Source of the DNA: Pelotomaculum isophthalicicum JI
GTDB lineage: Bacteria; Bacillota; Desulfotomaculia; Desulfotomaculales; Pelotomaculaceae
Assembly (NCBI RefSeq): GCF_029478095.1
Contig: NZ_JAKOAV010000017.1
Coordinates: forward strand, 1 to 64,000
Direction: 5' to 3'
Length of the DNA stretch: 64,000 nt
Position 1 is the first letter of the stretch. Each line of letters begins with the position of its first letter. The translations under genes were made by a program, and so were the position numbers. The notes under the pieces were generated by a model. That model had not been told where the DNA came from, ran no database searches, and was given only the letters and a program-made list of their open reading frames with translations. Positions 6,142-53,932 of this stretch are shown here, piece after piece.

Positions 6142-6420
6142 CCCTCCGCCTCTTTTGAGACGAAGGGTTCACTTCGTGGTACCACTCAAATTAACGACGC
6201 CTAAACGCCGTTCACTCAAAAGGATACGGGACAACAAGTCCGATATCCCCTTCCTTTTAACGGCGGAAGCTCCGTCCGGACCTAATCTCACAATGGATTT
6301 CGACCGGCTGCTCCAGGGAGAGTTCTGCGTTAAGCCTTCGACCGCCTCGCACCATCCGGCGGCTCTCTGAACCTGATACTAAACACTTACTATTCCCTTT
6401 CATCGTCTTTACATATTATA
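6142..6420 (-). promoter_or_regulatory. Leucine T-box leader with terminator
   Basis: On the minus strand the leader has all core T-box parts. Stem I includes CAGAGAG and GGTGCGA. The specifier loop reads GAA-CTC (CTC at 6322-6320, leucine). The T-box sequence AGTGGTACCACG lies at 6186-6175. An 11-base-pair terminator (6142-6167, loop of four) follows. Uncharged tRNA-Leu would pair with CTC and the T-box bulge and favour read-through into leuA. Upstream, TTGACA (6455-6450) with TAAGAT 18 bases on, or a separate TATAAT, could serve as promoter. Confidence 0.9.
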
Positions 6421-14472: not shown

Positions 14473-14626
14473 AAAAATTAAGCCGCCTGGGCCAAATATT
14501 TTACCCAGGCGGCCGGTAATCATCCCGATCATGCTCCCTGTTGTTCGTTCAACTCATCCGCCAGTCACATGATCTATGCTTTAAGTTTTCTAATCTAGTA
14601 TAAGTGATTTTCCAATATGCTGTCAA
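14473..14626 (-). promoter_or_regulatory. ZTP (pfl) riboswitch with terminator and promoter
   Basis: Minus-strand leader: TTGACA (14626-14621), 18 bases, TATACT (14602-14597), then an aptamer with the pfl blocks GTGACTGGCGGAT, AACAGGGAGCATG and CCGCCTGGG. The last block forms a 10-base-pair terminator stem (GCCGCCTGGG / CCCAGGCGGC, 14482-14513) followed by a T-rich run. In this class, ZTP or AICAR binding prevents terminator formation, so the transformylase is made when AICAR accumulates. Confidence 0.88.
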
Positions 14627-21282: not shown

Positions 21283-21430
21283 AAAAAAAGGGCGAGTATA
21301 GTCATATAAGACTATACCCACCCCAGTAAAGTCAGCTTCCTTGTTGCCTGGCAATCATGGCTTACTACTAAGCGTTAGACCCAAGGCTATGCGTCCCCGG
21401 CTTTCGCACGGGTTTGCCCAACACGTTGCG
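21283..21430 (-). promoter_or_regulatory. c-di-GMP-I (GEMM-I) riboswitch with terminator
   Basis: Minus-strand leader with the GEMM-I core: GGGCAAACC, a GCGAAAGC tetraloop hairpin, GGACGCATAGCC, GGGTCTAACGC and a second helix. A 13-base-pair terminator (21291-21303 / 21310-21322, two wobble pairs) with a T-rich run follows. The first G of GGGCAAACC, the base that reads the ligand guanine in the Vc2 RNA, is G here, which favours c-di-GMP over cGAMP. A TATAAT lies upstream near 21465. Read-through leads to the NhaD-like transporter. Confidence 0.88.
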
Positions 21431-47535: not shown

Positions 47536-47619
47536 TGTCTGCGATAAATTTTACTCAACTTGATTAAACCAAGTTGACTTAAACGGTAAACGTTATTAAT
47601 ATATTTAGTTAATAAATTT

Positions 47620-47798
47620 AATAACGCGCTCCGAGTTAAAACACCTAAAGCGAGAGCTATGGCTTTTAACCACTGGGTGCAAATGGAAACATCTGTGCCT
47701 CCCGTCTGGAAAGGAGATTTTCTTTCTGAGTCTTTTATTAAAAGACATGAAAGAATTGCTAGAAGTTAAGGCAGTTTCCAGACGGAAATTGCCTTTTT
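47620..47798 (+). promoter_or_regulatory. Attenuator RNA resembling the Moco/Tuco riboswitch
   Basis: A structured plus-strand leader before the Fe-S oxidoreductase gene. Blocks that resemble the Moco RNA motif are CTCCGAG (about 47628-47634), an ATG-GAAA-CAT hairpin, GTGCCTCCCG and GGAAAGGAG. A 12-base-pair terminator follows (47768-47779 / 47784-47795, one G-T pair, loop AGAC, then TTT). Bases 47702-47712 are the exact complement of 47775-47785, so an antiterminator of 11 pairs competes with it. That switch is certain from sequence; the molybdenum/tungsten-cofactor assignment is from memory of the motif and needs a covariance search. Confidence 0.62.
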
Positions 47799-47840
47799 AT
47801 ATGATTTTTTAAACACAAATTGTCGTGTGTCGAGGTTAAT

Positions 47841-49796
47841 ATGCGCGTAATAATATTTTTTTCTTTATTAATTATTTCCTCTAGTTATTTTTTCTTCCAA
47901 ATATATAGGCGTATTTGTTATATTCGCTTGGGAAAACCGGAAAATTGTAGTAATCACCGTCTGGAAAGGTTGCAATATTTCTGTCAGGCTGTTTTCCTGC
48001 AAAAAAAGATTGCGGAATATCCTCTTTCCGGCATTTTCCACGGTTTTATCATGTGGGGTTTTATTGTTTTAATATTTAGCAGTTTGGACATGGCGGCCAT
48101 AGTTCTTTTTAAAGCGGAAATAACATTCTTGGAGCATCCATGGTTCTTGTTTTTAAGAGATCTTTTTATTTTATTGGTATCAATAGGGATTATTGGTTTT
48201 ACTTTTCGCCGCTTATTTTTAAAACTTTTTAAACAAAACTGGTTTCATAGTTCATTTAGGAATTATGCTATTCCTATTTTAATTTTTTTCATTTTCCTTA
48301 GCGAACTCCTTTACTTATCCATTCATTCCATATTAATGGAAAGAGCATTGCCTGGCGCCTGGCTGGTTGTTGCTTTTTCTGACAGGCTTTCTTTCCTTGG
48401 CGCGCCTGCCTTGCTCATTCTCATGGAAATAAGTTGGTGGTTTCACTATTTAACGATTTTTTCTCTTCTATTTATTATTCCAAACTCTAAACATCTTCAC
48501 CTTGTCTTTGCCCCTTTTAATATCTATTGGCGTTCTTTGCGTACGAAAGGATCCCTTCAGCCGGCTTCACTGGCGGAAACAAGTAAACAAGTACGCGGTG
48601 TAAACACAGTTGATGATTTTACCTGGAAGCAGTTGCTTGATACCTTTAGCTGTGTGCTTTGCGGGCGCTGCCATCGGGAGTGCCCGTCGGAACGTAGTAA
48701 AGAATGGTTAAAGCCCAAAAGACTAAACGGTTTTATCCGCACATATCTGGAAGAAGAGGGTTCTGAGCTTTTAAAAAACAAACCTTCAATAAAAATGGCA
48801 GGCGACCTTTTCCACTATGATTTTATTTGGAGTTGCACTACCTGTGGCGGGTGTAACGAAGCTTGCCCCGTATCTATTGACCATCTCTCCAAAATTATTG
48901 ATATGCGACGCGGTATCGTATCGGAGGGAAAACATATCCCCCCTGCCATGAAAGAGTTTTTTAATAATCTTGAGCAATCGGATAATCCTTACGGTAAACC
49001 ACGAAAACCCGGTCACGACTATATTTGGGCCGGTGAATTAGGGATTCCAAGCATTTCTGAAAAGCCCGATGCCGATTATTTGTTTTTTGTCGGCTGTCAG
49101 GGAACTTTTGACAAACCAACCCAAAAAGCGGCTGCGGCTTTTGCCAAAATACTGCAATCAGCCAAAGTGGACTTCGCAATTCTCGGAAAGGAAGAGCGGT
49201 GTTGCGGTGAAACGGCCAGAAGGATGGGTAATGAACCTCTTTTTCAAAAAATAGCCCAGGGGAATATTTCCAGTTGGGCGAAGTACGGTATCAATAAGAT
49301 TATTACCTTCTGTCCCCACTGCTTTAATACCTTTAAAAATGAATATCCTCAATTTGGCGGGAATTATGACATCATTTCACACGCGGCTTTTTTGGCCGAC
49401 CTTCTGCGGCAGGGCAGACTCCAGATTACCCACCCGCGGAATACTGCCGTTAACTATCATGATGCTTGTTATCTGGGGCGATTTAATGATATTTATGAGC
49501 AGCCCAGGTATGTATTGAGATCAGTACCTGGCGTGCGTTTAATAGAAATGCCCAGGAACAAAAAGGGATCATTTTGCTGCGGTGCCGGCGGCGGACGTTT
49601 CTGGACCAGGTCGGAAAGAGAAAACCCGATAAGTGTTAATCGAGTTAAAGAGGCCTTGGCTACAGAGGCTTCAATGGTTATTACCGCCTGCCCCTATTGT
49701 CGTACTATTTTTAAGGAAAAAACAGAGCGGCAGGAACCAGGTGACATTATGGTTCTGGATATAGCAGAATTATTGCTCTCAGCCCTTTCCGACTAA
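47841..49796 (+). CDS. Membrane Fe-S oxidoreductase, EMO/FadF-like (CCG domains)
   Basis: About 651 residues. The first 230 hold six hydrophobic helices of a NarI-like haem-b type membrane domain, with PLSGIFHGFIMWGF. Two [4Fe-4S] sites follow (CVLCGRCHRECP, CTTCGGCNEACP) and then two CCG domains of the HdrD type (EERCCGETARRMG; YHDACYLGRFNDIY ... SFCCGAGGG). This matches the EtfAB:menaquinone oxidoreductase (EMO)/FadF family, which passes electrons from electron-transfer flavoprotein to quinone during fatty-acid oxidation. No etf gene is in the window. ATG at 47841 follows GAGG. Preceded by the attenuator RNA. Confidence 0.82.
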   Translation: MRVIIFFSLLIISSSYFFFQIYRRICYIRLGKPENCSNHRLERLQYFCQAVFLQKKIAEYPLSGIFHGFIMWGFIVLIFSSLDMAAIVLFKAEITFLEHPWFLFLRDLFILLVSIGIIGFTFRRLFLKLFKQNWFHSSFRNYAIPILIFFIFLSELLYLSIHSILMERALPGAWLVVAFSDRLSFLGAPALLILMEISWWFHYLTIFSLLFIIPNSKHLHLVFAPFNIYWRSLRTKGSLQPASLAETSKQVRGVNTVDDFTWKQLLDTFSCVLCGRCHRECPSERSKEWLKPKRLNGFIRTYLEEEGSELLKNKPSIKMAGDLFHYDFIWSCTTCGGCNEACPVSIDHLSKIIDMRRGIVSEGKHIPPAMKEFFNNLEQSDNPYGKPRKPGHDYIWAGELGIPSISEKPDADYLFFVGCQGTFDKPTQKAAAAFAKILQSAKVDFAILGKEERCCGETARRMGNEPLFQKIAQGNISSWAKYGINKIITFCPHCFNTFKNEYPQFGGNYDIISHAAFLADLLRQGRLQITHPRNTAVNYHDACYLGRFNDIYEQPRYVLRSVPGVRLIEMPRNKKGSFCCGAGGGRFWTRSERENPISVNRVKEALATEASMVITACPYCRTIFKEKTERQEPGDIMVLDIAELLLSALSD

Positions 49797-49948: not shown

Positions 49949-50683
49949 ATGGTAAATAATATTTCCCGTAATGATCAGATAGACTTTTTAAATATAACTA
50001 CCGAAGATTTAGCGCTAATGGGTAAATTTAAGGATATTTTTATCAAAGAAGCTGATCGGGTTGTAGATGCATTCTATAATCATATTCTGAAATATCCTGA
50101 GTTAAGAAACTTAATAGAAGCCAAAAGTACTGTTAATCGTTTAAAAGAAACTCAAAGAAAGTATTTTATTAGTTTAGCCTCGGACACTATTAATGAAGAT
50201 TACGTGAAGCAACGGCTTTATATCGGCCAAAAACATCGTGAGGTGGGCCTTTTTCCTAAGTGGTACATAGGTGCCTATCAAATATATTACAAGGAAATAT
50301 TTAAAATATTACAAAAAACTTGTAACAATGAAAATAATACCGAATTTATTCAGGCAAATATTGCTTTTCAAAAACGTTTAAATTTTGATATGCAACTAGC
50401 AATAGAAAATTATATTATCGATCAGCTACGGCAGTTAGTAGCTTTTAATGGTGATATTGAGTCAGCGGCTGCTATTATTGGAGAAATAGCAGAACAAACC
50501 AATATGGTTTCATTAAATGCTTCAATAGAGGCAGCAAGGGCTGGGGATAACGGACGAACTTTTGCTGTTGTTGCCGCAGAAGTAAGAAAACTTGCCGATC
50601 TTTCAGCAAAATCTGCTAAAGACATTACTAGTCTGGCACAGAAAAATAGAAAAACAATTGAACAAATGGGTAGTGGTAAATAA
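49949..50683 (+). CDS. HemAT-like globin-coupled sensor with a shortened signalling tail
   Basis: 244 residues. Residues 15-165 form a sensor globin with probable proximal haem His96 ([16 protein letters not shown]). A short methyl-accepting hairpin tip follows ([40 protein letters not shown]), and the protein stops soon after. HemAT of Bacillus is about 430 residues, so most of the coiled coil is missing after the tip, and methylation helices cannot form a complete rod. It may still bind CheW/CheA, or be a truncated oxygen receptor. ATG after GGGAGGTGG. Confidence 0.8.
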
Positions 50684-51535: not shown

Positions 51536-52567
51536 TTAATATGCCCCGGAATCCGGGTCACTTAAATCTTTTTCCGTAACTGGGTGTTTAAAAATGATAT
51601 ACGTCCAGACCTGGTAAGCGATCACAATGGGTATAAAGATGGCCACCACCAGCGTCATGATCTTCAAGGTATATTGACTGGCCGATGAATTAAAGGCCGT
51701 CAGGCTATACCTCGGGTCAAGACTTGATGGTATCAGGTTGGGAAACAGACCGATGACCCCGGTGAAAGTGACCGTCACAATCGTCACACAGGAGGAGAAA
51801 AAAGCCGCTACGGACTTTTTCCCGGATATCAACATTTTCATGCCTAACAAAGCGATTACAGCAGCGGCGGGAACCGCGAAGCAGGCCGGACTGCTCATAA
51901 AGTTAATATAAAGCTTCGTAGCAAAAGCGGTAAGAACCAGGAACCCCGCGGCTGCCAACAGCAGGAGCCACCACAGCTTTGCCGCAAGCGCCCGGGCTCT
52001 GGCTTCTAATTCACCTTCCGTCTTGACAGAAACCCAAATGGCTGCGTGCTCCAGGAAAAGCAGCAAAAAGAGCGATCCGGCCAGTAGGCCGTAAGGGTTC
52101 AACAGAGTCAGGAGACTCCCGTGGTAACCCTGGGCGTCCATTGGTAAGCCCTGAAAGATGTTGCCAAAGGCTACACCAAAGAGCAGGGCTGGTACAAGGC
52201 TACCCAGGAAGAGTGCGATGTCCCACGTCTTCCGCCAGGAATCCGAATCGACCTTGCCCCGGAACTCAAAGGATACGCCACGTCCGATCAGGGCGAACAA
52301 AATGATTAAAAGCGGCGCGTAAAGATAGCTAAACATGTAGGCATACGTTGTTGGAAAGGCGGCAAACGTCACGCCGCCGGCGGCAAGGAGCCAAACTTCG
52401 TTGCCGTCCCAGACCGGGCCGACAGTGTTGATCAATATCCTTTTCTCCATCTCGCTTTTCCCAATAAAAGGGGCCAATATTCCCACTCCCAGGTCAAATC
52501 CGTCGAGCATGAAATAGACCGCCCAGAGCAGGCCCCACAGGCCAAACCAGAGCATCTGCAATTCCAT
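51536..52567 (-). CDS. cydB: Cytochrome bd quinol oxidase subunit II
   Basis: 343 residues with 8-9 membrane helices and CydB signatures: WFGLWGLLWAVYFMLDGFDLGVGIL, GPVWDGNEVWLLAAGGVTFAAFPTTYA. Partner of CydA, 12 bases downstream. The complex reduces oxygen to water with quinol and protects an anaerobe at low oxygen. ATG at 52567 follows GGGAGG. Confidence 0.95.
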   Translation of the reverse strand: MELQMLWFGLWGLLWAVYFMLDGFDLGVGILAPFIGKSEMEKRILINTVGPVWDGNEVWLLAAGGVTFAAFPTTYAYMFSYLYAPLLIILFALIGRGVSFEFRGKVDSDSWRKTWDIALFLGSLVPALLFGVAFGNIFQGLPMDAQGYHGSLLTLLNPYGLLAGSLFLLLFLEHAAIWVSVKTEGELEARARALAAKLWWLLLLAAAGFLVLTAFATKLYINFMSSPACFAVPAAAVIALLGMKMLISGKKSVAAFFSSCVTIVTVTFTGVIGLFPNLIPSSLDPRYSLTAFNSSASQYTLKIMTLVVAIFIPIVIAYQVWTYIIFKHPVTEKDLSDPDSGAY

Positions 52568-52579
52568 CACCGCACCTCC

Positions 52580-53932
52580 CTATAACGGTATTGTCCGGCC
52601 GGACGGCATGCTGTGCCCCATCTCTTCGGCCGGGCCATTTTTTGAGAATTTCACCAACAGATAAATGTCTGCCACTGCCAACAGGCCGTAAAATATTGCG
52701 AACCCCGCCAGAGATGCAGCCGCCTGTCCTGCCGTGATATTCTTAGACACCGCGTCGGACGTTTTCATCAAGCCGTAAACAATCCACGGCTGCCGCCCTA
52801 CTTCCGCCACCAGCCAGCCCAACTGACAGGCTAGGTAGGGAAGAGGCATGGAAAAAACCATGATTTTTAAAAACCACGTTTTTTTCTCCAACGTTTCCTT
52901 TCTGGAAAAAACATATCCGGATACTGACAGGAGTATAAACAGGGTGGTCAGCCCCACCATTAACCTGAAACTGACAAAGGTTAAGGTTACGGGCGGGCGT
53001 TCGCTGACCGGAAAATCTTTTAAGCCCTGCACCGTGGCGTGCGGGTCATGCTCGGCCAGAATGCTCAGCATGTTGGGTACAGGCAGAATTTCCATTGTGT
53101 TTCGTTCTGTTGCCTCGTCCGGTATGGCAAATATGTAAATTGGCGCGCCTTGGCGGGTTTCCCAGATAGTCTCCATAGCAGCAAACTTGGTAGGCTGGGT
53201 TCTAGCCACCTCCCGGGCGTGCCAATCCCCGACGGCTACTTCCGCCAGGCAGGACATTAAGGCAAAGGCAGCGGCAATTCGAAACGATTTTTTAAAAAAA
53301 TCAAGGAAATTATTCTTCAAAATGTGGTACGCGGACACTCCCATTACGAAGAAAGCTCCTACCAGGTAGCCGCCCAGCACGGTGTGCAGGAATTTTGACC
53401 AGGCGTAGCCGGATAGCGCCACCGCGGCGAAATCCACCAGTTCCGCCCGGCCGTTGTTGATGACATAACCCACCGGATGCTGCATCCAGGCATTGGCGGT
53501 GAGGATCCACAGCGCCGAAAGGCTGGTGCCGGCAGCTACCATCCAGACAGCAACGGCGTGAGCCTTTTTCGATATTCTTTTCCAGCCAAAAATCCAGATG
53601 CCCATGAATGTAGACTCCAAGAAGAAAGCTACTGAAGCCTCAATGGCCAGGGGGGCGCCGAATATATCCCCAACGTAGCGGGCATACTCAGCCCAGTTAG
53701 TGCCGAACTGGAACTCCAGAGTAATCCCGGTGACCACTCCCAAGGCGAAGTTGATCAGGAACAATTTGCCCCAGAATTTGGTCATCTTAAGGTATTGTAC
53801 GTTTCCGGTCTTGACGTAAAGGGTTTCCATCACAGCGACAATGATAGAAATACCCAAAGTTAACGGCACGAAAAGAAAGTGAAACATGGCAGTAATCGCA
53901 AATTGTAACCTCGCCAGTAGAAGCGCATCCAT
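52580..53932 (-). CDS. cydA: Cytochrome bd quinol oxidase subunit I
   Basis: 450 residues. LLLARLQFAITAMFHFLFVPLTLG includes the His ligand of haem b595, the Q loop is short, GVVTGITLEFQFGTNWAEYARYVGDIFGAPLAIE and FLESTFMGIWIFGW are typical, and the b558 His and Met ligands fall in the expected helices (GYLVGAFF...; SFRLMVGL). First gene of cydAB; ATG after AAGGGGGAG. Confidence 0.95.
   Translation of the reverse strand: MDALLLARLQFAITAMFHFLFVPLTLGISIIVAVMETLYVKTGNVQYLKMTKFWGKLFLINFALGVVTGITLEFQFGTNWAEYARYVGDIFGAPLAIEASVAFFLESTFMGIWIFGWKRISKKAHAVAVWMVAAGTSLSALWILTANAWMQHPVGYVINNGRAELVDFAAVALSGYAWSKFLHTVLGGYLVGAFFVMGVSAYHILKNNFLDFFKKSFRIAAAFALMSCLAEVAVGDWHAREVARTQPTKFAAMETIWETRQGAPIYIFAIPDEATERNTMEILPVPNMLSILAEHDPHATVQGLKDFPVSERPPVTLTFVSFRLMVGLTTLFILLSVSGYVFSRKETLEKKTWFLKIMVFSMPLPYLACQLGWLVAEVGRQPWIVYGLMKTSDAVSKNITAGQAAASLAGFAIFYGLLAVADIYLLVKFSKNGPAEEMGHSMPSGRTIPL

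Follow-up and report, generated by a model that had tools for sequence, protein, structure and literature searches.

What a riboswitch resembling those for the molybdenum and tungsten cofactors controls, and why it should precede a gene for a membrane electron-transfer protein, is the question raised by a locus of Pelotomaculum isophthalicicum JI, which lies within the 64,000 nucleotides analysed here (i.e. the window). Syntrophs, whose metabolism runs close to what thermodynamics allows, release their electrons as formate or H2; the formate route uses tungsten or molybdenum enzymes, and the H2 route uses hydrogenases needing neither metal. The initial annotation of this locus had proposed a Moco/Tuco-like attenuator RNA acting on an EMO-type gene and tying cofactor status to the electron flow of fatty-acid oxidation.

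The class of the RNA was examined using the Rfam covariance models. A match to RF01055 (Moco/Tuco RNA) was found at 47617-47732 (+), spanning model positions 1-135 of 135 and scoring 60.7 bits against a gathering score of 36, with E-values of 4e-12 for the whole window and 1e-13 for the local stretch. The match bears out the class suggested initially, and the sequence blocks on which that suggestion rested (CTCCGAG at 47629, GCCTCCCG and GGAAAGGAG) are all present. Parabacteroides-1, PyrR and other weak Rfam matches in the local stretch were all far under their own gathering scores. Elsewhere in the window, a T-box leader (6153-6412), a ZMP/ZTP riboswitch (14496-14578) and a c-di-GMP-I riboswitch (21339-21428), all on the reverse strand, exceeded theirs. 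In the RF01055 alignment, P1 of the aptamer is formed by CUCC (47629-47632) and GGAG (47713-47716), P2 with its tetraloop-receptor-like bulge (CCUAA...UAUGG) occupies 47635-47670, and P4, capped by a GAAA tetraloop, occupies 47675-47699.

Covariation was counted on RF01055 alignments of ten EMO-associated leaders, as a plain MAFFT alignment of these divergent leaders misaligned P2 and P4. Compensatory changes were observed in 9 of 11 outer P2 pairs and 6 of 11 P4 pairs. Standard pairs filled 220 P2/P4 cells as compared to a mean of 189 and a maximum of 202 in shuffles, and 16 pairs were compensatory as compared to a shuffle mean of 9.4, the shuffles ignoring relatedness in both cases. The initial annotation had named the lack of both an Rfam match and covariation as what would count against its assignment; a match and covariation were both found. 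The P3 helix is absent from all ten leaders in the RF01055 alignment. P3-lacking RNAs have been tied to the tungsten cofactor (Wco/Tuco) by correlation, in a study that did not demonstrate direct ligand binding for the class (Regulski et al. 2008, PMC2408646). The missing P3 is the sole basis for assigning the window aptamer to the tungsten-cofactor type, for which Wco is the likely ligand. TupA/TupB-type genes and AOR genes occur in the same genome.

The leader contains the remaining elements of a transcriptional switch. A putative sigma-A promoter (TTGACT-17-TAATAT, 47574-47602, +) agrees with the consensus at 9 of 12 positions, which alone is not above chance, and both hexamers recur at a near-identical distance from the aptamer in four orthologous leaders (i.e. 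L119, L120, L121 and L122). The interval between aptamer and terminator holds a spacer hairpin (47720-47755, +; predicted -11.1 kcal/mol) that is predicted in 4/4 of these leaders despite their different sequence. An intrinsic terminator (47768-47795, +), comprising a 12 bp stem and a 4-nt loop and followed by a T-run, recurs in L119-L122, where a G-C pair has been exchanged for A-U with pairing retained; two terminator-like sites were found in the stretch versus 0.4 expected. The antiterminator 5' arm, CCGUCUGGAAA (47702-47712, +), lies within aptamer P5 and the P5-P1 joint, is conserved in L119-L122 and is an exact 11-bp complement of the 3' arm, UUUCCAGACGG (47775-47785, +), which lies within the terminator stem and loop. 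The strong terminator and the exact 11-base antiterminator of the initial annotation are therefore both real features of the leader. As judged by eye, the antiterminator pairs are kept in L119-L122 via changes that include C-G to U-A and, in L120, G-C to U-A, although L121 and L122 each leave one position unpaired. All four orthologues retain the whole set of promoter, aptamer, antiterminator and terminator. Translation of the gene can start at an ATG at 47841 behind a Shine-Dalgarno sequence (GAGG, 47832-47835), and the TTG start at 47820 given by the mechanical ORF call is unnecessary.

The behaviour of the leader was modelled by thermodynamic folding at growing transcript lengths. The leader was more stable than shuffled sequences (z -3.3). 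In free transcripts of 168-176 nt, the antiterminator exhibited a mean pairing of 0.74-0.93 (0.92-0.93 at 170-176 nt). With P1, P2 and P5 held, its pairing fell to 0.00 and the terminator formed instead, and earlier. The same contrast between free and P1-held transcripts was observed for the EMO leaders L119, L120, L122, L133, L140 and C33, more weakly for L121, and likewise for the leaders of the C33 IDDTD gene and of TupBC. As the 5' arm sits inside P5 and the P5-P1 joint, a transcript can form either the aptamer or the antiterminator but not both. The layout is very probably the anatomy of a transcription-terminating OFF switch, and OFF is presumably also the direction in vivo. Binding of the cofactor, most likely Wco, would allow P1 and P5 of the aptamer to hold CCGUCUGGAAA, so that the terminator forms and the gene is off; at low cofactor supply, CCGUCUGGAAA would pair with UUUCCAGACGG in the terminator stem and loop, permitting read-through and synthesis of the protein. 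The OFF direction and the P3-lacking, tungsten-type form are additions to the initial annotation, which gave neither.

The controlled gene (47841-49796, +) encodes an EMO/EtfD-like membrane iron-sulfur electron-transfer protein of 651 aa, consisting of a heme b domain, two [4Fe-4S] clusters and two CCG domains (Pfam CCG, 5e-36; Fer4_8, 3e-10). The nearest solved structure is mycobacterial EtfD (PDB 9ojn, E 7e-101; described in PMC13083937), a homology which, together with the conserved ligand positions, upholds the initial EMO-type assignment. On alignment to 9ojn, H67 and H220 correspond to the EtfD heme ligands His78 and His241, and C271/274/277/281 and C332/335/338/342 to the ligands of the cubane clusters. 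C419, C454, C491, H493 and C494 align with the D1/D2 site and C543, C579, C580, C617 and C620 with the D2 site. The heme, [4Fe-4S] and CCG ligand positions are invariant in 12 relatives. Conservation of these positions relative to EtfD indicates that the protein has the construction of a wire delivering electrons to menaquinone. Electrons would probably enter from a soluble donor, pass along the two CCG-bound clusters, both cubane clusters and heme b, and end on menaquinone; both the donor and the physiological role of the protein we infer. No etfAB genes were found beside the EMO-like gene in the window or in L118-L122. Directly downstream, at 49949-50683, the window encodes a fusion of a protoglobin with a short signalling domain of the methyl-accepting chemotaxis type, and cydAB (cytochrome bd oxidase) is present at 51536-53932 (-), in a genome with anaerobic named relatives.

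The pairing of this RNA with this type of gene is conserved. Orthologues with 67-73% identity in Pelotomaculum PtaB.Bin104, 'Desulfoscipio geothermicus' MAGs and Sporotomaculum syntrophicum all have an upstream RF01055 RNA. A second subfamily member in the same genome (C33; 46% identical) lies behind two tandem RF01055 RNAs, and the second copies in L133, L140, L157 and L159 likewise have RF01055. On the tree of EMO proteins, RF01055 was found upstream of 6/6 members of the window clade and 5/5 of the C33 clade, of none of the nine members of the etf-linked EMO clade and of none in the sister clades; this distribution needs 2 changes as compared to a mean of 9.4 for shuffled labels. The RF01055-bearing clades span Pelotomaculum, Sporotomaculum and Desulfoscipio genomes. 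The window EMO is a member of a subfamily separate from the etf-linked EMOs. A general association of RF01055 with EMO genes was rejected, as no RF01055 was found upstream of EMO homologues in the loci L040-L055 and L034-L035 of relatives or in the Sporomusa, Pelosinus and Desulfotruncus loci. In one further locus (L098, G011:C1, 6029-7142), RF01055 lies 77 nt upstream of a truncated EMO-like gene encoding the membrane half only (~310 aa).

The window locus is one of many RF01055 loci in this genome. Over all contigs, 21 RF01055 RNAs were detected, with 23 in another family member (G015). Most of the 21, including those of TupBC and the C33 EMO, are followed by a terminator overlapping a complement of the aptamer core. 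The leader of a NiFe hydrogenase had a terminator-like hairpin by eye and no clear antiterminator in the scan, and no terminator was found in the RF01055-containing leader of the C62 formate dehydrogenase, a leader that had been considered a candidate for ON control. Further targets are a histidine kinase/response regulator pair, ResB/ResC-like proteins and S-layer/Ig-like surface proteins. One surface protein behind a Moco/Tuco RNA (L031, G000:C22, 5845-7659) has a weak oxidoreductase-molybdopterin-binding match and recalls the targets described as 'sulphite oxidase' in Syntrophomonas wolfei. The genome contains four AOR-family and five molybdopterin-oxidoreductase matches, the enzymes that a tungsten shortage would hit.

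Taken as a whole, the locus is best read, on balance, as a tungsten-type RF01055 OFF riboswitch controlling a dedicated EMO/EtfD-like wire, with a role in tungsten shortage as the most likely function. A response to tungsten shortage is proposed because TupA, TupBC, the NiFe hydrogenase and the second EMO-like gene (C33) also lie behind RF01055 RNAs. Under such a shortage, electrons would bypass the tungsten enzymes that stay incomplete, i.e. formate dehydrogenases and aldehyde oxidoreductases; we prefer this bypass role of the wire, albeit tentatively. A wider proposal, which is possible but rather doubtful, is that the many RF01055 RNAs respond to a low level of the tungsten cofactor by shifting electron disposal away from the formate and aldehyde enzymes that depend on tungsten, towards routes that do not (i.e. 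the NiFe hydrogenase and the two EMO-like wires), and by raising tungstate uptake; the cofactor would then act as a master signal for electron flow in syntrophy. If true, a sensor that switches on an EMO-like wire at cofactor scarcity would link trace-metal supply directly to the choice of electron route, with relevance for anaerobic digesters short of tungsten.

Gene neighbourhoods bear on the main rival to the bypass, namely that the EMO-like protein acts in molybdenum or tungsten acquisition, in cofactor insertion or as a dedicated electron partner of tungsten enzymes, the OFF switch then providing end-product feedback. The initial annotation had reported no molybdenum or tungsten gene nearby; this holds for the window, which has no homologue of the reference set (Mo/W enzymes, transporters and cofactor genes), but not for the relatives, which adjoin moeA, AOR, tupABC, modABC or mobA. 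In the switched orthologue L118, moeA lies 5 nt after the EMO gene, and genes for a ThiF-family protein and an aldehyde ferredoxin oxidoreductase are found close by, further on. EMO genes lie beside tupABC and moeA in L123, ModA-type and MoCF genes in L125 and modABC and mobA in L135. As these three loci have no RF01055, the apparent link of the subfamily to Mo/W physiology is partly independent of the riboswitch, and riboswitches and gene neighbourhoods together mark the subfamily as a candidate for such physiology. Several other subfamily EMOs adjoin an ECF-transporter cluster. That members of the subfamily adjoin moeA, tup or mod genes in more than one genome fits a cofactor-supply role as well as it fits the bypass, and PMC2408646 proposes OFF control for biosynthesis genes, moaABCDE among them. 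However, the neighbours vary between genomes and are absent from the window, and the most that L119-L122 offer is a formate dehydrogenase on the opposite strand, ~4 kb away, which in L119 and L122 lies beyond an acyl-CoA synthetase gene. We also know of no homologue of the EMO-like wire in cofactor synthesis. A supply or partnership role appears rather unlikely. The ECF-type cluster, accompanied by a TiaS/methanogenesis-marker-11-like 'IDDTD' protein, adjoins EMO-like genes in L021 (G000:C33, 2843-9127) and L099-L104, and in the window genome (C33) it lies behind tandem Moco/Tuco RNAs.

The bypass reading also has to be set against the original proposal, in which the window gene is a beta-oxidation EMO set by cofactor status. 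Several EMO homologues are present in this genome, and the canonical etf-linked one (G000:C37:27620-29617), which adjoins etfA and an acyl-CoA dehydrogenase gene, is 36% identical to the window protein. It shares the domain layout and ligands but falls outside the well-supported clade of the window protein, and has no RF01055 upstream. As the EMO linked to etfA and acyl-CoA dehydrogenase is a different gene without a riboswitch, the tie to fatty-acid oxidation is not supported, and the window gene was rejected as the beta-oxidation EMO of this genome, a place filled by C37. The homology to EtfD, the second, unlinked one of the two etfA genes, and the acyl-CoA synthetase gene following the EMO gene in L119-L122 speak for the original proposal; in L119, however, that synthetase gene comes with its own promoter-like site. 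Overall, a beta-oxidation role is improbable.

A plain attenuator or a decayed aptamer that has lost cofactor sensing might be suspected from the score of 60.7 bits, which ranks towards the bottom of the 21 matches of the genome, from the mismatched outer P1 pairs in the RF01055 alignment, and from the degenerate relative L118, whose match is weak (38.1 bits) and which is missing the conserved promoter. The conserved core and GAAA tetraloop, the conserved and covarying P2 and P4, and the joint retention of all switch elements in four orthologues make such decay very improbable. An ON switch, by which the cofactor would raise EMO expression, has nothing direct in its favour and is scarcely credible given an aptamer and antiterminator that exclude each other at P5 and the P5-P1 joint.

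Comparison with known systems separates what is familiar from what is new at this locus. The RNA shares P1, P2, P4, P5, the GAAA tetraloop, the receptor-like bulge and a terminator-type platform with the RF01055 class (PMC2408646); with its OFF platform, it is an unexceptional representative of that known class. Many copies, including tandem ones, occur both in Syntrophomonas wolfei (at least 15; PMC2408646) and in the window genome. Compared to mycobacterial EtfD (9ojn) and syntroph EMO/DUF224, the protein has the same membrane heme b, two cubane clusters and two CCG domains; it differs from EtfD in C455, an Hdr-like second cysteine that replaces Thr539 here as in 12/12 aligned relatives, in having no adjacent etfAB and in being under riboswitch control. 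Genes with no part in cofactor synthesis, hydrogenase genes among them, have been reported behind tandem Wco riboswitches (PMC9481103), so that targets outside cofactor metabolism are not new as such. The examples of that report include no EMO/EtfD-like gene, the main text of PMC2408646 contains no target that is an electron-transfer protein without a Mo or W domain, and no earlier report of an EMO-like target was found in the literature searched, most subscription papers and supplements lying outside the search. Wco-type RNAs precede redox genes in both PMC9481103 and the present genome, the window RNA being single where the reported RNAs, like those of the paralogue at C33, are in tandem, and the conserved target, i.e. 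two clades of EMO-like wires, seems to be new.
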